DNA of 64,000 nt from Macrocystis pyrifera. Taxonomy: Eukaryota; Sar; Phaeophyceae; Laminariales; Laminariaceae. Positions within the stretch are counted from its first letter, which is position 1, and each line of letters starts with the position of its first letter. The position numbers and the translations under genes are program-made. Positions 22,560 to 57,800 of this stretch are shown here, piece after piece. The notes under the pieces are model-generated. The model saw nothing but the letters and a program-made list of their open reading frames with translations. It ran no database searches and was not told the origin of the DNA. The DNA is taken from positions 7,748,241 through 7,812,240 of the forward strand of contig JASSKH010000027.1 in the NCBI GenBank assembly GCA_031763025.1, written 5' to 3'.

Positions 22560-23980
22560 TTCTAGTGTGCTCTGGATCAAGCATGTATAATAAATTGTTA
22601 TTTCCCTCGATGAAATGCACTCGGGCGCTGTTCTCAGTTTGCTTGCCTCTTCTTTTGTGAAGTCGCAGGTGGAGTTGTTGAGAGTGACGGGAGAGGCCAG
22701 TCAGGACCAGCACAGACGGAACCCCAGAGTGCTGTGTTTGGCTCAGGCAGAGCGTCTACTTATTGACTATCGGTACCACTAGTACTCGGCGGGGACATAT
22801 ATCCAGCAGCAGCACACGAAGACGAAACGAGCACCCGCACCAGTACCACAGCAATGGGATCGATATCATTGAGGTGTAATTGCGGTTGCAGGGCTAAATA
22901 CAAGACTGTTGGCCAACGAAAAACGAAACATGCACGGGGAGAGATCTCCAACAGTCAGTCAGAAAGCTGACGACGCTCTCTTGGCCAAAGCAAAAACATG
23001 TCGGTTGTTTATTACAACAAGTAAACGACAGATTGACAAGAGATCTCTGTACCGCGAAATAGTTGTTGTTGGCGAAATGAGAGCTGAGGTGGATGCATGC
23101 TCTAACTAGGGGGCAAAAGCTTGCCGCCGGCGTCCTACGGTATCCTCCCAAACCTGACAAAAGCCCATTTTTTGTTGTGTGTTGTTACACATTCGAAAGT
23201 TTGACGTATTTTCAACTGCCGGGTTATTGTTTTTGCGAGTACCGAAACATACGATGAGGATCGCAAAATACAAATAAAGGCGAAAAGTAGAAAGTAATCA
23301 ACTAACTGCTGTTGTAAAAGACCTACGATAGTATGCAATTTTGGGTCATTCTTTTTGCGAGTACCGAAACATAAGACGAGGATCGCAAAATACAAATAAA
23401 GGCGAAAAGTAGAAAGTAATCAACTAACTGCTGTTGTTGTAAAAGACCTACGATAGTTCGTATGCAATTTTTTAGTAGTATGCAATTTTTTAACAGTACT
23501 CGTACGTAGATAATTTGTTGTCGCACAAGAAGTAATCCACTCTTGTTGTAATGTAAAATACCTGCTTGTGCTATATAGTATGCGAAGTTGTTGGCCAAAT
23601 GAGAAATGAGGTGGATGCATGCTCTAGGGGGCAAAAAACATGACTGACTTAAGTACTATGGAAATTTCATATCGTATAGGGGGTATATATAGGGTAGACC
23701 TATATTGATACCAGGCTCTACTGCTATAGTATGCGAATGACGATGCTTTGTTGGCCAATGAAAAACATTTTGTGGGTTGTTACACATTCGACAGATTGAC
23801 ACGTATTTTCAACTGGCGGGTTATTATTTGCGATTACCGAAACATCCGATGAGGATCGCAAACAAATAAAAGAAAAGTAGCAAGTAATCTGCTGCCGGCG
23901 GCGTCCTACGGTATCCCCCCAAACCTGAAAAAAAAAACCCTTTTTTTGCCTTTCGCTGCTGTAAAAGACCTGCGATAGTA
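22560..23980. repeat. Mosaic repeat with Rep-A fragments and a tandem duplication
   Basis: 22570-22760 resembles 9460-9640 and the reverse of 42960-43120. 23085-23170, 23590-23640 and 23885-23945 match parts of Rep-A. 23226-23465 is a tandem pair of ~120 bp units sharing GAGTACCGAAACATA and GATCGCAAAATACAAATAAA. No gene recognised. It directly precedes the LINE. Confidence 0.55.
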
Positions 23981-23984
23981 TATT

Positions 23985-26900
23985 ACTCTCCGGCCTGCCC
24001 CGTCCTTGGGGTGGGCCGAGGAAGCCCGCAAGGACTTACAGCGGTCTAGCAGCAGCCACACGGGCATCGAACCTCGGGCTGGGTAGAGAGGGAACCTCGC
24101 GCGGTTTGGCGAGTGAACTGTTCACTCTAAGGACCGCGCGGGGTGGTGGTGATGAGTTTTATTTTTAACCCGGATGCCGAGGAGTTCATCCCCGAGGCAG
24201 GACGGGTACATCACCACAGCAGAGAGCGCTGCGTGGGCAACCTGGGGAGAGGAAAGGCTGGTACGCAAGCGCGACAGGAAGGATGGGGGTGCCGGAGTTG
24301 GCTGGGACGGCTGCACCCAACCCACGGAAACCAAGGCGCGAACCGGGCTACAAAGCGGAGAGCCAATATTATCATAGAGACAAAGAAGAGACAAAAAAAG
24401 CAAAAAAGGAGGAGGGGACGAGCCTCTCGTCGGCTGGCAAAAAAAGCAGCACGCGAGGCTCGTAAGAGACGGAAGGCGGCACTTGTGGTGGTAGCGACCT
24501 ACAATGTGCGTACCCTGGCCGTAAAGGGGAAGAACGGGTACGGGCGTGACGAGTGCGTACTTGCGAAAGGGCGGCAACTCGGTTGTGACTTCATTGGTCT
24601 GCAGGAAACCCGACGGTCCGGCAACACGAGATTTCGTGCAGCTGGATACTAAGTTTTTGTTCAGGTCAGGAAAAAACAGCAGCGAGACAAGGGTTGTATG
24701 GGGTAGGTTTAGCAGTAAAATACTCAATATGCCGTACGTCTAAGTTCACTCAGCAGTTTATTGACAAACGACTTATGTCTATGCGCTTTGAATTGGACGG
24801 TAAGTGCGATGCGATTAATTTCGTCGTTGCGTACGCCCCAACTGATTGTACCAAAGACTACAAGCAGAAAGGCGTGTTCTGGCGAAAGTTGGAGGACCTG
24901 GTTGAGCAGATTCCTGCTAAAGAGTGTTTGTTTGTGCTTGTAGATGCCAATGGGCGAACTGGGGGGAGGATAGAAGGGTGCGGTGATGATGAATGTAGGG
25001 TGCTCGGAGCATACGGACGAGATGTTCGTAGTGATAACGGCAAACGGCTTTTGTCGTTCGCTACCAGTTGCAAGCTAGCGCTCACCAACACATTTTTCAG
25101 CACGCGCAAGGGCGGAATATCGCATACATGCAACGGCACCAGCCTGAATGATCGTAAGCGAATCGACTACATCCTAACTCGTCAAGTCCACCGACCTAGA
25201 GTACATAATGTTACAGTCGTCCCACAGCCCCCACCCCCTACTAAGGCTGATTCAGACCAAAACATCGTGTACATCAAGGTCCGACTTAGTGGTCACTTTT
25301 CGTCTAACCGAAGATTGCTGAAACCCCCAAAACGCCGAGAATTCGACAGGCAGCTTTTCTTATCCGATGGAGAGCGTCGACACCGAATAGTCGAGAGGGT
25401 CGTTTCCACTCTTAACCAACCTACCCAGCCTCGTAACACGTCTGACATGGTTGAGTTTTTCACCACAACTGTCATGAATGCTGTTGAGAAAGAGGTGCCA
25501 CCTCCACCACGTCGCCACCACCGAAACGGTTGGTGTGAGACCCCCGAAACGTTGGCCGCTTTCAAAGTAGCATGGACAGCGAGGGAGGATGCGAGACAGC
25601 TCTTGCGTGTCTACCCCCGAGATAGTACAGCGTGGAAGAAGTTGGGATCTGTTTGTGCGAATCTGCAGGAAGTGGTCGCCGCAGGAGTCAATGCGTATTT
25701 TGAAGAGTACCTCGCTGAAACCGAGAAATTCCTCGCGAGTTCCGATCAACCAGGGTTCTACAAGCACCTGAAGAGTACGGTAGGGTTGCAAGGTACGAAA
25801 GCGAGGAGTGAACAGTTTATCATGGACGAGGATGGCACGCTGTTGCGGGATCAAGCGCGAATTCGTGAAAGATGGGCGGGGCACTACCACAAACTATTGA
25901 ACACGAAATCGCTGAAACTTGACCCCACGATCATCGACCTAGTGCCACCACGACCGCTGAAACTATCCCTTGGAAATGAACCATCCATTGACGAGATGAT
26001 GGAAGCAGTGAAGGGTATGTCAAACTGGAAAGCCGTTGGACCAGATGGTCTCCCGGTCGAAGTACTGAAACTTGACCACCCCGCTTTCGTGCAGTATTTT
26101 CACAGTATCCTTGTTAACGTTTGGGTAACGGGAGAAGTCCCCCAGCAATGGAAATATGCGATCATAAAAACCCTTCACAAAAAGAAGGATAGAACTGATT
26201 GCAACAACTACAGAGGTATTTCGCTTGTTGCTCACGCAGGCAAGGTGTTGCTGAAAATCGTTGCGTCCCGTCTAAGCAGCTACCGCGAGACCGAGCATAT
26301 ACTCCCTGAAGAACAGTGCGGCTTCCGCCCCGCACGGTCAACACAGTCGATATGCTGTTTGTTGCGCGCCGGTTGGTGGAGCTCGGACGGCAGAAGAAAA
26401 TCCCCCTGTACATGTGCTTCATCGACCTGCAGAAAGCGTACGACTCTGTCGACCGAGAATTGTTGTGGGAGGTACTCACACGCCTTGGTGTACCAACCAA
26501 GATGCTCACAATCATTCGCAATTTTCACGAAGGCATGCGTGCTCGCGTGCGTGCGGATGACGGTGAACACTCGGACTGGTTCAATGTAACCCAGGGGCTG
26601 CGGCAAGGCTGCGTACTATCGCCGTTACTGTTCAACGTGTTCTTCGCCGCTGCGATACACATCGTGCTGGTACGCCTCAGCAAAGACGAATGCATCGTAA
26701 GGGATTTGGTTCATCTCGAAGAGGACAGGGTTGTCGGAAAAGAGGAACCGTTGGCATGCGTGCAAAGGGCTGTGTGGGGTTTGTTGTATGCAGACGACGC
26801 AGGAATAGTCTCGAAGTCGGCGGAAGGCCTTGCAAGAATGATGACAGTCATCGTGACTGTCTTCGAAGCAGTAGGTCTCACGGTATCCGAGAAGAAGACA

Positions 26901-28300
26901 GAGACGATGCTCCTACGAACACCGGATCAGACGTTTACCACCTCACCGCTCGCGATCGAAGCTGCAGGCCAAAAGTATAAACAGACGACCCAGTTTTTAT
27001 ACCTAGGAGGCATTATCCACGAGAACGCTGACCTCTCCTTCGAAATCGAGCGACGAATCCGTCTGATGCGGGCATGCCTCAAACGGTATGGTCCGGAACT
27101 GTACGATAGGACGAACGCACCGCTTAGTCTGAAAGTCCGGACGCTGAAGGCCGAGGTGATTGAGACCTTGCTGTACGGTTGCGTGACGTGGACCCTCATT
27201 GCGGACCACTTCGCCAAGCTTCGATCAGCCCACCACGAAGTCCTTCTGCGAGTCATTGGCTTCCAGCGCCGACTACGCACCGACCACACCACCCTCTCGT
27301 ATGCGAAGGCGCTCAGGATAACACGATGCGAAAGTATCGAAACGACCATCCGTAAACGGCGACTCTTCTTTGCGGGGGCTCTGGTGCGGCAACACGAGGG
27401 GCGATTGCCCAGTCGGTTGATGTTCGGGACGATCGCTGGTGGGGGGAGCCCGAAACCAGGCGGGCAGCCCAAGACTTGGCCTAGGGCCATTGCTGAGGAC
27501 CTTAGAGTGTTCAAAGCCACCGAGGGATCAACGGAAGACTCCCCCTTAGTCTTTGGAGTTGGGACCGCACTGTGGCCCACTGCAGCAAAACAGATGGGAA
27601 AGTGGTACCGGGGAATCCTCGAAGCAGCTGAACAGTTCATGGGCAGGTGGCACGAGGCTGAGGCAAAGCTGAGTAGACAGCGCCGTGCATCCGCTGCAGG
27701 TAGTGGTAGAGGGAATGGGGGGAGGGGTAACAGCAGGAGGGGGAGAAGGAACACCGTACAAGTGTATGGGGGCAGGGGGGGGAACAGGAGGAGTAGAAGG
27801 GAAACCGCGGTAGAAGAGAGTAGCAGAGAGACCGCAGATAGGGTAGCAAGGTACCAGGCCGACTAATAGGTTGGACTTTTCTTTGCTACTCGTACCGCCA
27901 ACTGCTGCGGCCGTTCGGTATGTAGTGGCTTGGTGCTTTGATTTTTTTTCCATGACTTAAACTTTTTCCTATATTTTCCTCTTCTTATCCTTATGAAAGA
28001 AGTACTACATAGTGGGTGGGTGACGAGCGTATTTTGGCCCACTCATTATTTCTCTTTTTACTTAGTTAAGTGTTCACCGGGATGCATAGTCCCCTTTTTC
28101 CTTCTCGTTTATTCCCCCTTGCACGTCCCTTTTGGCTCATGCTCGGGGTAAGTATGTGTCTGAGCTTTGGCTTCCCATTTTATTTACTTATTTGGGATTC
28201 TTCTCCTTTTCTTTTTCTTTTTCGGTTTCGTTTCTTCGTTGCTTCTCTTTCTTCATGGTGTACTTTGGTTGCTGGCGTATGTATGTAGTGTCGGCCGCAC
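23985..28300 (+). mobile_element. LINE retrotransposon (EN + RT), boundaries approximate
   Basis: The coding part (24152-27866) is a single LINE polyprotein. The ~160 bp before it forms strong GC hairpins (for example GGCCTGCCCC pairing with GGGGTGGGCC near 24000-24026, and CCTCGCGCGG with CCGCGCGGGG near 24090-24140), as expected of a structured 5' end. The 3' end is uncertain: about 430 bp of T-rich sequence follow the stop and no poly(A) or clear target duplication was found. The ~4.3 kb length is typical of compact single-ORF LINEs. Confidence 0.7.
24152..27866 (+). pseudogene. LINE polyprotein: PAM2 motif, AP-type endonuclease, reverse transcriptase
   Basis: Order of parts: an N-terminal PAM2-like motif (FNPDAEEFIP, residues 5-14), a lysine/arginine-rich region (about residues 70-110), an AP-type endonuclease ([47 protein letters not shown]), then a reverse transcriptase ([56 protein letters not shown] and the catalytic YADD at 26787-26798). 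A glycine/arginine-rich tail ([15 protein letters not shown]) ends the protein. The open frame is broken twice: near 24650, just after the first endonuclease motifs, and near 26340, within the GFRPARST block, where an extra CA would explain the shift. The element is therefore inactive unless these are sequencing errors. The clade is not fixed; RTE-like affinity is a guess. The ATG at 24152 is chosen because it starts directly before the PAM2 motif. Confidence 0.85.
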
Positions 28301-29500
28301 CTAGTGCGAAGACATGGTATTGCGTAGGCTATTAATGCGTTACGGTGTGTTATCTCTGTGTCGTAGTCTGTGACCACAGAGCTCGTATCTTTCTAGGGTG
28401 AAGAATCAGCACGGACACTGGGCTTGCTGGATGTCGACGGGTAGAAGAACGGTTTAATGTGAAGAACACACACACACATACCAGGTACGCATTTTTTTGG
28501 CCATTCGAGACGGATACAGCATAGTAGTACTCGTAGATAATTTTGCTGTGGAGGCAGAAAAAGTAACCACAAACTGAGAAAACAGAGTAATTCAATCGGT
28601 ACTTCACCTATGAGTTCTTCAGAACGGGCTGCTTCAAGCCGTTACTCCGTAGATCCTTAGCCTGGCCTCGTAGCGGAGCTAGGGCTGCGTCATCGGCTGC
28701 TTCCTGCTGCTGCCTGGTCTGCTGCTACTGCTGTTGCTCCTGCTGCTCTTGTTAATGATTTTGCTGGGGCTTACTGCTGTTGCACTGGTGCTTCTGTTTA
28801 GCACGGCCTTCCCTTTGAACCTGGCTGCTTCGCGGGTTGCTGTTGGTACTCCTCTTGGCAATCAACAAAATCACCCTACCTTTGGGCCCAGTCCCCTCCT
28901 CGTACCGTTGAACTCCCGCGTCCACCGCTGGCATCAGCAACATGCGCTTGGCATGACATGTTGTCGTCGTTGCATGCGAAATCTTACATCACGCTGGCCG
29001 CCTTCATGGGGGCCATCCTTTAGTCCTGGGATGTGTGGTGAAATGGGTAGATTCGTGGGTTCGGCCGAGATATGGATGGGCGGCTGGACAGGATTCCCGG
29101 GTGCATCGCAGGCATCAGCGGCATCAGGAACATCCCCTTGGCCGCCATAGACATGTTGCTATTAATACTACTGCTGTTGTAGTTGTTGCGTCGTACATAA
29201 TCGTGGATCATGCTGGCGGCCTTCATGAGGGCCCTTGCTCGTCCTCGGGCGGGTGGCTGGGTCGATAGGTGGGGTGGATAGATGAGTGGGTTCGGCGGAG
29301 ATATCGATGGGTGGATTATGTACCTAACAACGAGCACATGTCTATGGCGGCAGGCTAAGGGGATGGCACCCAGCACAGCAGACACAGAGCCGGAAAGATG
29401 GAGACAACCCACACCCCTATGAGGAAAAGCCTTTTTTCTTTCTGGAACTCCATTCCGCGGTATATCGCCAAAAGTGCGTCAATCGCCATCCTCCGCGCTA
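28300..29500. other. Degenerate repeats upstream of the LENG8-like gene
   Basis: A CTG/CAG-rich stretch (28690-28800), direct repeats of about 45 bp (29040-29085 and 29272-29316, sharing GTGGGTTCGGC.GAGATAT), and an inverted pair (about 29128-29157 and 29337-29366, core ATGTCTATGGCGGC). The last 300 bp or so before 29508 must hold the promoter of the downstream gene, but I cannot point to a motif. Confidence 0.4.
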
Positions 29501-29507
29501 TCGAGTT

Positions 29508-30485
29508 ATGGCGCAATCGTGGATTACAGAGGTCAGCATGGAGGTGGATGCGAGTGAGACATCTCAGATCCTAAACCCCCCACCCCCACCACCCGTCCCC
29601 GCGCCACCTCCTCATGTAGATCAGCCTCCAAGCACTGCTACCCACGTCTCAGATGGTACCGGGGCCATCGCTACGCTTCCAGGTCCTGCATCGGGCTTCT
29701 ACCAGGATCCCTACAGCTCCTTCTCCCAGTACGGTGCAGCGCAGCAGACAGATCCCCAGGTACGGAAGCTTCCCTAAATACGAATGTGGCAGGACACGCG
29801 GTCGGAAAGTTCCACTCTTTCTCATTTGTTTGATTTTGTGCCAGTCTCGTGAACCTTTATTAGTATGAGAATCTGTCTCCTGGCACTCGGCACTCGTCAA
29901 CAAAGAGGGTAAATGCGGCGTCTCTTGTATAGTTTCGTTCGAGTGGTCGAGTGGGAAGTGCTGCCCCGCATTTCCTGTTGTTTTACTGCTTTACCTGCGT
30001 AGTTTCCACAACAAAGCTACACGCAAAGGGAACCCGGCTCACACTAATATGAACTCCTCCTCAAATCGTTGGCGCCGGACTTCTGCTGTACCTGGTATCA
30101 GATTTCTCAGTGGACTGGCTACTACGGAGGGTATCCAATGAACACCTACGCCAGCAACAACGCGCAGCATCACCCGGGCTTCCCCGCTTCTAGCTACCAG
30201 GGATACAACGGTTTTCACGGCACACAACCTCAGTATGGACAGGCTTACCCACAGCAGCAGTGGCAAGGGTATGCCCCTCTCCCTCATATGCATGGCGTGC
30301 AACCCCAGCCAATCGCCGCACAGGCGCCAGCTTTTGCAAACCAGCCTCCCCAGCCTTACGGTCAACCGTATCTACAGACTCCCGAGACCTCACCAGCAGT
30401 TGTATACGAAGCCCAGCCACCATTACCGGTACAAGAAGCACCAGGTAGTCTGGTATCGTTGCCGCCGCTGCCGCCGCCGCCTCCG

Positions 30486-30516
<31 letters not shown>

Positions 30517-30761
30517 TGCCCCCACAGGTGACCGTGAGCAGAAGCCTGCGCTCTCCCACGACTCGACTTCACACAAACCAGCCGAGGCTGCAGATTTGGC
30601 TCCAGTTGTTGAGGTGATGCTATTAATATTAATATTAAGAATAGTGACTACTGTAGTGGGCATGTCGCACGACCTCAATACCTGCAGTATTTTACCTGTG
30701 TGTACCTGGTATGGTCATTTCGCCCTAAAAAATATCGTCAGCACAACAACAACAACAACAA

Positions 30762-50590: not shown

Positions 50591-53500
50591 CTAGGGTTGC
50601 TCCTCCTGCTGACATAAGCACAAGCACGACACATCATCTCCATGGCGTGGATCTTGGAGGTATGTCGCAACGTCGAGTAGAAGCCAAAAACAGCGCCGTG
50701 AATAGGAATTTGAGAATGCAAATTGTTCTCACCTCGAAGCCTTGGCAAACGTAGTTTATCCAGGACGGCTGAGCTTCGACAGGGTTCTCACGGACGGATG
50801 CAGCTCGCAAAGTCCACGGTCTGAGATCATGCGCAGATGGCTCTGGAACGGCGATGCTGCCGTCGTCAGTTGCTGTGCTCCCGGTGGCCGTAAGCAAGGA
50901 CACAAGCACATTCACCATCTTGTCGTCAAGCTGTACCATGTCCGGAGGAACTTGATTCAATGCCGTGCTGCACATTTGCTTCACGTTTTCGTCGCCCCTT
51001 CCGGAGAGATCTAGCATGTGTTCAACCAATCCATCTTTTATGAGAACATCGCAGCACCAAACACGGATACAAGGAGGGGTAGCTGGGTCATTTTCGCTAG
51101 CGATGTCATTATTTGGGTATGCGTTTTGGATTAATGTGTTATATTACGTAAATACTTACCGGACGAACGTCAAAAAGCAAACCGCGGGGGGGGGGGGGGG
51201 GGTATCGATGAGCTATTTCGAATTGAAAAAACGACACCTTTACCGTGTAGCAAGCTCGCGCACCGCTACGCGAGGTTTTCGGGCAAAGAAAAATTGACAC
51301 GGCCATTTCGACTAGAGCTTCCGGAGTTCCCGAGTGCGTTTATAGTGTAGAGCGTGACAAGCTGCCTAGTGGCATAAGTAGACGCTTCTCCCCTCCCAGT
51401 ATACCAGTATAGGTGAGTTGACGCTTCTCCCCTCTTATCAGGCACCGTCAAATCGCACGTGCAAGTAACTTCGTACGTAAAGCAAGCCCTGTTGTTCTTT
51501 CTTAGTAAGTACTTGATATATAAGTACTGGTGCTAGTAGCAGTATGATGACTTCCACAGCGGCGAGTGAACATGCTTGAACATGCTTGAACACGAAGAGA
51601 AGAGAAACTAACATCCACGTCTGAATCGTATTCTCAACTTGAACTTTCCTCGTGAGGAGGTGCGATTTGTTGGACAAGTGTATTGCAGCATATTCTCCCG
51701 ATTGGACCATCGTTCCGCAATATACTGACGGTAAGCCTCTCACCTTTATGAAACGCAAGCATAGACTCGCGCATGCCTGTTATTCTCAAGCACACCATGG
51801 CCACGTTGGAGAGGGGCTCTGTATCGCTCGACGCAGATAGGCGCTTCAACACCTTCGAAAACCGCGCACTTTCAGTGGATAGCCTTCTTAGCGCATCATC
51901 GGAGATAACCACGTTGCGACAAACTACGCTACAACGTAGACATACAGATTTGTTCAGGCCTAACAGGTCTTCCAGAGTAAGCCAGTACAGAGCCTCCGGT
52001 AGCCCCTCGTCAACCATGTCGAATGCTACTTCCGTAGTTGTTGAAAGTCGACACAAGGCTGTAGCGACGTCTTGCTTGATCTCAGCGCTTTCGACCTTGG
52101 CGAGGCGCATTAATGCAGGCAACACCTCTTCCTTCATCATCTGCGGGTGACCCGGAACAAAAGACGCCATATCTCTGAGAGCCTTGCTGACCAGTAGCTT
52201 GTCGTCGTCGTCGACAAGAGCCTGAAAATTGAATAATGATTCCGGTTGAGAGCAACGGCAGGAGAAAATAAAGCATGATTGCGTAAGTAACGGGAATATT
52301 GACAGGTGAATCAAGTCAGCGATGAACGCGCCTTAAAATGTAGGCGCTAGGCATGCTGCGGGGCGAGTGTCTCAGACGCACCCCCGTGGTGTGCAGTACT
52401 CCGACAAGACACCCGAGGTGCTTCCAGGATGCACTGCCGTAGTAATCACATTGATACATAAGCTTGAAACAGGCATCGTTGCATGTATTAGCTCTGGCGC
52501 ATACAATTTGATTGGGTCGGCAAGGGGGATCCCCGCCGTGCGCGCCTCGTGACCGATAATAAATCATTCAGACCAGATGCTTGTCCCGAAAAAGAACGCT
52601 CGTTGCACACCCTGGCCGTCTTATGATGCGATCCGAACTCCCCCCGGGTCAGACTCGCTCTGTATCCAAACGGCCGTTCACGCCCACTTCACGAAGCCCC
52701 GTGGCCACCGCGCACTTGCTAGTAAGGCTTTGTCAGGAACTAACTGTCAGACGCAAAAGCCCCGTCTCACCTTGAGGATGACGCAAAGGGCAGAAGTTGT
52801 GGCTGACTCTACAGCCGCTTCTCGCGCGGGAGGGTGATGTGTCACAAGGTTCACCACTGCCTGTAGTGCATCCAGGCGGGTTGCCAAAGAGAGAGAGCCA
52901 GTGCGCACGGTAGTGGCGAGCACGCCGAACGCCGCGCGCGACGCTGAGTTTTGTTGCGCCTCAGGACAGGAAGATAGATTGCACATGGTGGCCACGCAGA
53001 GGTGCTTGACGATGGTGTGTCCTATCTTGTGCAGGGAAACGAGAACGCTGGTTATGTCCTGGGCGGCTAACGTTGGTCGACAGCAGTCCTCGCGACTGAG
53101 GTTAAAGGCGGTCGTCGCGACATACTCAAGGGCATCCTTGTCCTTAACGCACGCAATGGCTCGCAGAGCGCCTACGATTGCTCTTTTGGCAAGAGCACAA
53201 CTCGCCGATTTTCCGGCGGAGGAAATCATCGTTAGTGCAGCCCCGCACATCTTTTTGACGTCAACGCCTCCGTTTGGAAACGATGCCTGGACAACCAACA
53301 CGCGTTCTGCCTCCATCTCGAGCAGCTTTCCTTCGTAACGAGACATTTCACACGTCAAGTTATATATCGCTCGCACGCATATGGTATTGAGATCTGGACT
53401 TTGTAGCCTGGTCAGTCGCACCAACGCAAATACAGCGTCCTGATCGGCGATCAGCCTTCGAGTATCTTCCCTCGCCAACAGATTGAATATTGCCTTCGCC

Positions 53501-56500
53501 AGCGCTTCCTTCGTCTTTATTTCCTCCACACGGAGCACGGTGACCGCAATAAGATCTTGGATCATTCCCTCCTTGACCAAGGACATAACGTGCTCTTTTT
53601 GTACACACACGCTCAACACGTTGCACAACGCAATCGCGGACAAAAACTGAACTTGAGCGGCATCCTTGACACCAGACCGCATCATGGCGATAAGAGCCGG
53701 GACAACATTCTTGTTGGTCCCGAGAGAGGAACGGCCCCGCGGGTATGACGACAAATTGCTCAAAGCTTTGGCACAGCACAACACAAGCGCGGCTTCCGTG
53801 GACGTCGATAGCAGCAGTAGTGACGCCAAGAAGCTCTCGTCCGTGATAACCTTGTGTATGGTCACGTTACAGAAGGCGGCCGCGCAGAGCTGTTTCGTCT
53901 ACTCCGTCAAGAGTCGGAAAAAGTGTCACAGAGGAAACAGCGAACGTCGGTGTGACAAGGAATTTATTTAGATCATAACCTGGCGAACAATGCACCAGGA
54001 TCGTCCTTCGGGGGCACACGCCAATGTGAGAAAGCAAGCATAAAACCAATTTGAGAGACGCAGCAGTGGTACTAAACATTGATTACGATCAAGAACACCA
54101 AACCAACTGCGACAAATTGTACCGTATCAGTGTAAGGCGGATAAGGCATAAAAAGACCTTATCGTGGTCCAAACACGTTTATATCGCGGCGCAGGTGGTC
54201 GCGTTTTTTCTGGAATCCGAAGGGATGGCCAAGCGAAGCAAACTTCGTCAACCGAGGCGTCTTTCACACCCCACAGCACGACTGGATATATGTCGTATCC
54301 CTACGGGCTACCATCCTGCAGAATTTCTGCTCACCTTAACAAAGTTTGAGTAGGACAAATGTGTCACCAAGAAGATGCCCCCGAGGTCCATCATTTGGGT
54401 AATGCTCTTCTCGTGCAGTGAAAAGTTATACAGAACTGCAGCACATTGTGCACTGAGGGCTCCTCCATCAACGTCTTTTGAAGAGTCAAGCGCCTCCAAC
54501 ACCCCTTGCGCAAGCAATCGCTGGTGGAATTCGCTGGTCAAGGATAAATTCTGCATCACCCCAAGGCAGGCAGCCTGCACGGGTGTTTTGTGCTTCTTCA
54601 TGAGGCCCACCAGCAAGGAGATGGTGAGGCTTTCGTCGAGCAAGCTACGGTAAGATCAAATACCAAAAAGCGGATGGACAAGGGGGGAAACGGGCTCATG
54701 GCATCGCATTCCAAGCGCTCGTATGGATAGCGCACAAAAGCAAATGTGGGATATCTCGGACGCGGTGCAGGTATGGTGGGGTTCACGTAAAGGCGGCTAC
54801 GCAACGTCAAAGGCCATTAGGTGCGGTTGCACGGGAAGAGCCACAGACGGGATATCGAAGATCAAGAGGTACATAAATACTAACTGAGAGACGCACATAT
54901 GCTACGTAGTGTCGGCTCGCTGGGAAACACAGACATCGCTCTGTCGATCAACACCTGCAAGGACTTGACGTGGCACCGATCACTCGAGCAACTATTTCTC
55001 GACCATACGACAGCGGCCATGCATACAGCAACAAGGGCGTGAGTGCACACCTGCCGGAGAGGAGAGGATTGCAGGAAATGTTGAATAGGATGAGACTGAT
55101 AGAAGGGGCGTGCGTATCCATATTGCCCATCCCTTGCACCGCCCGCACAACCCCTGACGACACAACTTCTGCTTGCGTGGCCTCGTTCGACACAAGAGCG
55201 CACAACAGACGGAGAATATGATGCTGCGCCGAAGGATGGTCGAGAACCAGTGCCCGGAGTAACATTTTGATCATGTTATTAGATTCGAGAACACGCCAAT
55301 GATTGGCCGGGTCCGCCGCCAAATTGCTCAGACCAGCCGCGGATATAGCAACTGCGAGCGAGGAGGGATGAGAGTAATGGAGAGCAGAGAGTGGGCGGTA
55401 ATAAGCCATTTCGCAATCATGTACGAGCAGCATCGATATGCGGAGCATTTAATATGGCATCGTTACGTCTGGAACTTAGCGCGCTGATCGGCGGTGGTAT
55501 ACGCCCACGGTCTGCAACAGCTGCGCTATGCCCACGCTGAATAGACAATCAGGGTAATATCGCCGTCCGCGGTTCTCGACAACAACCTAATGAACGAGGT
55601 AGCCGCATCAGAGACATACGATACAGTGCAACTGTGAGGTGTAGACAATACATTAGGTACCGACCCTGCTAATGCAATTGAGTAATACTTGAGTATTTGC
55701 GTACCTGATCTTGGATCCGATGCGCTCAGGTTCGTGGAAAAAGTGTCCATGATGCCTTCATCTAGTAAGCGGTTCGCCACGTCGCTGTATTTTGAAAGCT
55801 CTGCCAGTAGGACGGTGCAGCTGTGCCTTGCATCGGCACCACAAACGCTGATCACTCGTTGGCACTCTGCCACTATATGTTTGTCTATAGCCCGAGCTCT
55901 CGATTGTTTTAGGCCCAGGCAATTGAACAGTGTCCCTGTGCAAAGAATGACCGTGTCGTCGCTTTCGGATCCAAGCCTTGCTAGAATGTCCATCGCGATG
56001 CCTGCCACCTGATCATCTAGGTACGCCCTGACGTTGTCGAGAACAGTCAAATTTTTCGCTGCCAAGGCGCAAAAGTGGAGGCAGTCTCCGTCGCAAGCAC
56101 CAGCAAGAAGGTTTGTGATGGTTCGCACCACCACACGCTGCATGGAGTCCGCCTGCGAAGCTGTCAAGGTTATGGCGATATTTACCAGACCGCCTGTAGC
56201 GAGCTGGGCAGTAAGGACCTTCGGACTTTTTGCGAGCGAGTTGAGCGCAGGAAGCGCACCATCTTGAACCTGCGCATCATAACGGAAAGTTAGGTTAGAT
56301 GGTACGGGAACATAAATATACACCGTTGCAAGCTAAGGCGTACGGCGGGATGGCCATGCGACGGGAAATATAAAGGCTCGCACTTACCAGCCATTCCTCC
56401 AGGCCTGAACATGAAGAAACCGCAAGAAGAATGCCGGCGACATACTGCTGGACAAGCTCGTCTTCATGGGCCGAAAGTAGTCTAGCGACTCCTACGAGGC

Positions 56501-57800
56501 CGGCTTCGACGAGCTTGTTGATTTTGTATTCTTCGCTCAATATGTTCATGACGCATGCGAGGCCCATGAGAAGCACGTCGATGGCTTGCTTGGCATGCAT
56601 GATGCCTAGCAGCGGCGGGAGTAGACCATATTCGTCCAAGAAAGCCTTGCTCATCTGTATCGCATGGAAGTCGACAAAAAGCAAGACACAAATCGAAGTG
56701 AAAAACAACTCCAGAACAACGTAGACGAGCAGATATGTGCACGCGTATGTAGCACCCATCGGCCCCTGCAAAAGGTTCGGTTTACAAAGGGCGTACCTGG
56801 TCTCGCATGGACATGTTGAGAAGGGCCAAAGAGCACTTCCGTTGCGCTTGCATCTTGCTTGCAGTGTTCTTGGAGCCTAGCAGGTCGCCTGAATTTCGGT
56901 CGTCTCTCGTTTCGGCGAGCCGAGGAGAAATGCTCCTCCGCCCAAAGTCCTCTCGAATTGCAGCCTGGTCTGTCCTACCGCTGGTGGGTTCGTCGCCATT
57001 ATTGGTACCCTCTTGCCCCCACCGAGACATGTAAATGATGCCGGTCTCCACATAATCGGCGGGCGAGACGGCGTGACGCGAAGAGTCTACCCAAGTCGTG
57101 GCAGTCCGCGAAGAGGCACCCCCTCGCTGTACAAGCAAGTGTCGGAGTCGAGACGTTTTCCAGCGGAGGTCTTACTTTCAGTGATGCCATCCTCGGAGGA
57201 TTGTTACCTTCTCCAGCTGTATTCTGCACCTGTCGCTTCCTGTCGGCTTCCCGCCTTTCCGCTTTTTTATTCTCGATGTTGTCGTGTACGACCTTCATGT
57301 GTCTGATGTGCCGATTCAAGGCGGCTACAACGTCGTCCTTCGAGGGGTTTTCCCTCCAGAAATTTCTCTTGTGGTGCAGATTCCACTTGCGCACAAGTGC
57401 ACGAAGCTCTTCCATGCGTATTGGAGCACTCTCCGGATTGCGACGTGGAGGGAATAACCCAAGCCGAGTCAAATACGGGCGAAGACACTCGACCCTCCCT
57501 GAACAGTGAAGCGCAGAGAATTCGAAAAACCAGAACACAGCCAGTCACACAACAGCAAGGTACGTGTATGTGAGCAATGCGAAACACTGCAGTGCACCTG
57601 GTATGACAGGCCCTCGTACAGTACATGTATGTGTATGCGTGCTTTGCCCAATGATGTATGGGGCGTGGAGTTGCAAGAACGTTCTATAACTGGAACTCAA
57701 CTCAACTGCACGCGAACGGAACTGACTCACCTTCTTTAGGAAACTTGACGTAGCGCTCCTGAGCAAGGGCTGCACATCTTGGCTGAGGCCCAATCACCAT
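50591..57800 (-). CDS. Armadillo-repeat protein, 11 exons, 1376 aa
   Basis: Exons, 5' to 3' on the minus strand: 57731-57800, 57176-57498, 56797-57126, 56388-56654, 55705-56269, 55051-55351, 54335-54644, 52771-53889, 51744-52221, 50733-51082 and 50591-50608. All ten junctions agree in phase and the total, 4131 nt, is divisible by three. The first ~130 residues are basic and include ELRALVRKWNLHHKRNF with KDDVVAALNRHI, which looks SAP-like. From about residue 240 the protein is a long array of ARM-type helices (for example LVEAGLVGVARLL, LVKEGMIQDLIAV, CVRAIYNLTCE, LIKDGLVEHMLDL). ARM arrays bind peptides or act as scaffolds; partner and location are unknown. The donor of exon 9 could lie further downstream, which would add one more helix pair. 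Product family is certain, exact function not. Confidence 0.85.

Follow-up and report, generated by a model that had tools for sequence, protein, structure and literature searches.

A LINE of the kelp Macrocystis pyrifera appears to carry, in the first 14 residues of its single protein, a functional PAM2 motif with the MLLE domain of the host's cytoplasmic poly(A)-binding protein (PABP) as its target, probably so that the element captures its own mRNA in cis; we give this reading a probability of roughly 0.6. Taken apart, the binding of PAM2 to PABP, predicted from sequence, is likely, and cis capture has about even odds. The PAM2 motif itself is known; what would be new is a LINE that has it at the N-terminus.

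Cis-preference, the ability of a LINE enzyme to find its own RNA, has long called for an explanation, and for L1 PABP is under consideration. Since PABP binds the poly(A) tail, it is hard to tell whether the L1 enzyme itself holds PABP. If our reading is true, a mutable ten-residue motif on a LINE without a poly(A) end separates the two roles of PABP and makes the question testable. Further, a transposon would here be putting a short linear motif of its host to use.

The element in the window and its three families

The window, that is, the whole stretch of 64,000 nucleotides that was analysed, contains a LINE copy that is broken and belongs to a young family, here called family A (Table 1). 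Its ORF halts at 24652 after 166 aa and the coding for endonuclease and reverse transcriptase (RT) resumes in two other frames, so the copy is broken and an intact window copy is ruled out. Against PF00078 the first of its RT pieces scores below the Pfam cut-off and the second above it. The initial annotation spoke of a LINE polyprotein; this is to be corrected in that the ORF of the window copy is not intact.

Table 1. Layout of the LINE copy, in window coordinates.
Feature	Position	Strand	Remark
LINE copy, family A, broken	23991..28478	+	5' limit: similarity among 40 copies starts at about 23991; 3' junction: 20 longer copies
5' UTR, with in-frame stop eight codons 5' of the ATG	23991..24151	+	
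First ORF piece, 166 aa, premature stop	24152..24652	+	intact copies: 1241-1242 aa
PAM2 12-mer, residues 3-14, FIFNPDAEEFIP	24158..24193	+	core FNPDAEEFIP (residues 5-14) at 24164-24193
Basic Lys/Arg-rich stretch between PAM2 and endonuclease	24353..24475	+	from translation; ORF piece has no Pfam match
AP-endonuclease-like domain, frame broken	24494..25262	+	approximate limits transferred from P0001 (PF03372, residues 119-374)
Reverse transcriptase domain, in two frames	26179..27008	+	PF00078 in both pieces; P0001 residues 681-956
Gly/Arg-rich C-terminal tail and stop codon	27700..27866	+	start approximate; from translation
3' UTR	27867..28465	+	about 580 nt in L041
(AC)n 3' tail in place of poly(A)	28466..28478	+	window copy, plus 20/20 longer copies

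The codons from window position 24152 (ATG AGT TTT ATT TTT AAC CCG GAT GCC GAG GAG TTC ATC CCC GAG) read MSFIFNPDAEEFIPE. This ATG opens MSFIFNPDAEEFIPEAG and has an in-frame stop as the eighth codon upstream; in 39 of 40 family A copies such a stop lies at most 20 codons upstream of the start. In copy L041, whose ORF is intact, no further Met comes before residue 213, which already lies within the endonuclease match, so there is no ATG start between the motif and that domain. A start at a downstream ATG, which the initial annotation had named as fatal to its proposal, is thereby ruled out. Its claim of an almost exact PAM2 motif within the first 14 residues of the LINE ORF is borne out: the motif sits at the fixed ATG and recurs in three families.

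Family A was collected by a DNA search in which 40 of 804 candidates were scored, the window copy included, at 96-100% identity. The full PAM2 pattern is in frame in 36 of the 40; two of the exceptions are frame-shifted, one has lost Phe10 and one Pro5. Half of the copies that were read further (10/20) have the whole AP-endonuclease/RT ORF of 1241-1242 aa, and all ten of these intact ORFs start with FNP[DE]AEEFIP. The intact protein from L041 (P0001) matches PF03372 at residues 119-374 and PF00078 at 681-956, both above the Pfam cut-off, so that PAM2 precedes the first recognised domain, which starts at residue 119. Its RT region has 10 PDB matches, the RTs of L1 ORF2 and R2 among them.

The 3' end is (AC)n in all 20 longer copies and in the window copy, and in the 3' UTR of L041 neither AATAAA nor ATTAAA was found. 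No clear target-site duplication was seen in 17 sequences (the window copy and 16 others, four copies being skipped), where the longest shared words were of 0-8 bases. By eye, two family A copies (L045, L048) are inserted into other copies of their own or a related LINE; the sites contain CA and adjoin the (AC)n tail, and these insertions also lack a clear target-site duplication. Relatives of the LINE were sought in viral_contigs and none was confirmed.

Family B was reached via the RT domain, with no use of the motif (150 scored of 7470 candidates), and eight short stretches were fetched at the expected position of the N-terminus. Five (L074-L078) have the motif, as LNPDAKEFIP: L074-L077 start MFFLLNPDAKEFIPLAGRVHHHS and L078 differs from these by a single change, located after the motif. 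In L073 the homology is confined to the part downstream of the motif, and in L079 and L080 the LINE N-terminus was not seen.

The first members of family C, which is older than A, were found by motif patterns. It was resampled with a motif-free DNA query, derived from L086 downstream of the motif, with 40 of 237 candidates scored. Of these, 35 were fetched as 85-base segments (two were omitted as their match began too late and three had been fetched earlier), and 31 of the 35 are gap-free over the start. The residue-wise majority of these 31 decayed copies is MSFIFNPNAEEFVPTA, with the core FNPNAEEFVP. The strict pattern, [LFP]N[PV].A.EF.P, is present in 13 of the 31, in line with decay. At position 6, 17 of the 31 copies have Asn and 8 have Asp; at position 8, 22 have Glu and 5 have Lys.

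Four pattern searches for diverged motifs gave 9, 10, 6 and 5 matches, whereas the reversed controls had 0, 2, 0 and 0. For 15 of the 30 matches the flanking sequence was read: L066-L072, L081, L082, L084, L085 and L086 are LINE 5' ends (L066, by eye, a remnant), while L064, L065 and L083 are not. Relatives found in this manner, through the motif, add the forms LNPNAKEFFP and FNPDAKEFVP. Because they were selected by the motif, pattern-search matches are not counted for conservation, with the exception of L086, which is the family C sequence in the selection counts below and the source of the query. At L083 (G000:C204:3524850-3525150) a PAM2-like SLNPQASEFIPSG lies in an open frame and no LINE context was seen; it may be a host PAM2 protein.

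A few other features were noted in the window and the genome. Just 5' of the LINE, at 23230-23480, there are by eye neighbouring repeated stretches of the type GCGAGTACCGAAACATA...GATCGCAAAATACAAATAAAGGCGAAAAGTAG. The minus strand at 51634-56759 has adjacent ORFs that look armadillo/HEAT-like by eye and are perhaps exons of one large host gene, and at 30138-30663 an ORF with a long proline run overlaps an antisense ORF. The EsV-1-7 family is expanded in brown algae; here all 150 scored EsV-1-7 repeats, from 1586 candidates in the genome, pass the family cut-off, as one would expect of a brown alga.

The host PABP and the possible use of the motif

Among 33 scored candidates in the genome, PF00658 has three matches: a single gene on C208 accounts for two of them, as exons, and the third is its intronless retrocopy on C201. 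No further gene was found among these 33, and an MLLE other than that of PABP is rejected on this basis. From its MLLE and, by eye, its linker we name the C208 gene PABP-like. The gene reads KQKNMIGERLYPLIYEGQPVLAGKITG / [35 protein letters not shown]; in the PDB, MLLE chains of PABPC1 match it best and the MLLEs of UBR5/HYD rank lower. Its MLLE is identical to human PABPC1 at 41 of 60 residues and at 15 of the 18 published contact residues (PMC2854688), the differences being Q560N, F567Y and I588M; with the LARP4B set given in PMC7356810 included, 20 of 24 contacts are identical. The retrocopy (L061, G000:C201, about 7875684-7875881) is an intronless copy of the 3' coding part of PABP with the MLLE (KITDMLLE). 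On the opposite strand it has an RRM-like piece just below the Pfam cut-off (20.0 vs 20.7 bits), which marks it as an inverted processed copy of the kind that LINE machinery could produce by twin priming.

When compared with PDB, the N-terminus of family B aligns to the PAIP2 peptide of 1jgn (LNPDAKEFIP to LNPNAKEFVP) at an E-value of 1.4, and an unrelated chain, matching another stretch of the query, ranks above it (E 0.085). With the N-terminus of family A no PAM2 peptide was found in the PDB set, the single match being unrelated (E 0.85).

The proposed course of events is as follows. The PAM2 motif would bind the MLLE of cytoplasmic PABP and, as it is the first part to leave the ribosome, would probably catch PABP that sits on the poly(A) tail of its own mRNA in circularised form. 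The endonuclease and RT would thereby be held on their own RNA, giving cis-preference, and the basic region would take hold of the RNA; for this Lys/Arg-rich stretch we infer from the translation a possible role in RNA binding or nuclear import. Reverse transcription would then begin at the (AC)n end; the poly(A) tail would serve as a handle, while the 3' end that is copied would be a different one.

That PABP presents poly(A) to the RT is made less likely by the (AC)n tail. The initial annotation had suggested, as one use, the targeting of polyadenylated RNA; in the sense of priming on a 3'-terminal poly(A), this idea is weakened by the (AC)n ends of the longer copies (20/20). The absence of a templated poly(A) tail from the elements was also counted against our own preferred reading.

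The strongest alternative, although an unlikely one, is that PAM2-PABP binding helps the LINE mRNA to be translated or stabilised, or shields it from deadenylation, without holding the protein on its RNA in cis. Known PAM2 proteins do act in translation, termination and deadenylation (PMC2854688), and as the (AC)n tail means that the element is not copied from poly(A), the role of PABP could be over by the time reverse transcription starts. However, a motif on the element's own enzyme works only once translation is under way, and its N-terminal site would fit co-translational capture at least as well.

It is far less probable that the motif acts as a competitor, titrating PABP from host PAM2 proteins: it does resemble the PAM2 of PAIP2, from which a family C copy (L091, FNPNAKEFIP, Lys8) differs at two of ten positions. 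A retrotransposon enzyme is, however, expected to be far less abundant than PABP.

Possible selection on the peptide

The PAM2 definition asks for a hydrophobic residue at position 3 (mostly Leu, sometimes Pro or Phe), usually Asn at 4, Pro or Val at 5, an invariant Ala at 7, preferably Glu at 9, Phe at 10 and Pro at 12, with positions 6 and 8 exposed to solvent (PMC2854688). At all seven informative positions of this refined definition the kelp motif has the expected residue. The ten-residue core differs among A, B and the majority of C only at 3, 6, 8 and 11: position 3 remains hydrophobic (Leu in B, Phe in the other two), and N4, P5, A7, E9, F10 and P12 are unchanged.

For the seven contact codons we used Nei-Gojobori counts. 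Between A and C there are 4.0 synonymous changes on 4.3 sites and 0 nonsynonymous on 16.7; A-B gives 2.0 and 1.0 and B-C 3.0 and 1.0, on few codons, so that A-B alone says little, and with a family C sequence that is decayed and had been picked out through the motif. The contact residues of the family C majority are nevertheless those of L086. After the motif the rest of the N-terminus has nearly equal pS/pN (A-B 0.16/0.13, A-C 0.27/0.25, B-C 0.28/0.26), which may in part be decay, and AGRVHHHSRER, directly after the motif, is also kept between A and B. Selection on the motif among LINE copies of the same genome, the check proposed in the initial annotation, is suggested by A-C but hardly by the few codons of A-B. 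A tag kept while the sequence around it changed suggests a LINE that may grip the host mRNA machinery.

A reason at the level of nucleotides, such as an internal promoter, the start-codon context or an RNA structure, would mean that the motif is kept as DNA or RNA rather than as a peptide. By eye, the families also resemble one another in the part of the 5' UTR next to the ATG, but the dense synonymous change in the motif codons between A and C, with the contact residues staying, makes this explanation very improbable.

The strict pattern has a probability of about 4.6e-9 per position, given the composition of the window LINE protein, and when the whole protein was shuffled 20,000 times it never appeared. 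A looser, ELM-like pattern, used for comparison, turned up in 118 of the 20,000 shuffles and has two occurrences in the window. Translated in six frames, the window (127,996 codons) has just one occurrence of the strict pattern, at the LINE N-terminus. In the genome (537,376,219 bases, 223 contigs) a degenerate 26-base DNA motif has 312 matches, against 0 for its reversed control. A chance resemblance inherited by common descent is least probable of all: the three families do come from one lineage in one genome, but the shuffles, and changes that follow the structural definition of PAM2, rule out a chance match.

Comparison with known PAM2 proteins and LINEs

The kelp motif shares with the PAM2 proteins PAIP2, ataxin-2, eRF3, Tob, PAN3 and LARP4/4B the hydrophobic residue 3, Asn4, Pro5, Ala7, Glu9, Phe10 and Pro12 (PMC2854688), and in LARP4/4B PAM2 is likewise near the N-terminus (PMC7356810). 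It differs from them in that it sits on a retrotransposon enzyme, at residues 3-14, and that its binding is predicted. Judged by titles and the beginnings of abstracts, none of the open-licence papers found on PAM2/PABP motifs and transposons deals with a retrotransposon that has a PAM2, in agreement with the earlier remark that no well-described LINE starts with one.

In the brown alga Ectocarpus, RTE and RTE-X are abundant LINE clades (PMC12477816). Like RTE elements (PMC1291365), the kelp element has a single long ORF with AP-endonuclease and RT, beginning about 160 nt into the element, and a 3' tail of short repeats instead of poly(A); a separate ORF1 was not seen in it. However, the 3' UTR of RTE is very short, with AT-rich repeats (PMC1291365), whereas that of L041 has about 580 nt and ends in (AC)n. 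The kelp element would be RTE-like by ORF layout and repeat tail, but not by its 3' UTR.

A parallel is the ORF2p-PABPC1 contact of human LINE-1 (the PIE element), where also a LINE enzyme is reported to contact cytoplasmic PABP (PMC7617806). In L1 a contact between the ORF2p linker (residues 272-297) and RRM1 of PABPC1 is predicted, substitutions there disrupt retrotransposition, and the contact has been proposed to set cis-preference co-translationally (PMC7617806). PAM2 and MLLE have 0 occurrences in the main text of that paper. The kelp LINE would instead use an N-terminal PAM2 and the MLLE, and it ends in (AC)n where L1 has a poly(A) tail. We tentatively propose, at somewhat less than even odds, that kelp LINEs evolved a grip on PABP independently, with PAM2 at the start of their only protein, co-translational capture and an (AC)n copied end. 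Under such capture by PAM2, cis-preference would be uncoupled from poly(A) priming, and the grip would be convergent in purpose with the ORF2p-RRM1 contact of L1 while its parts are different.
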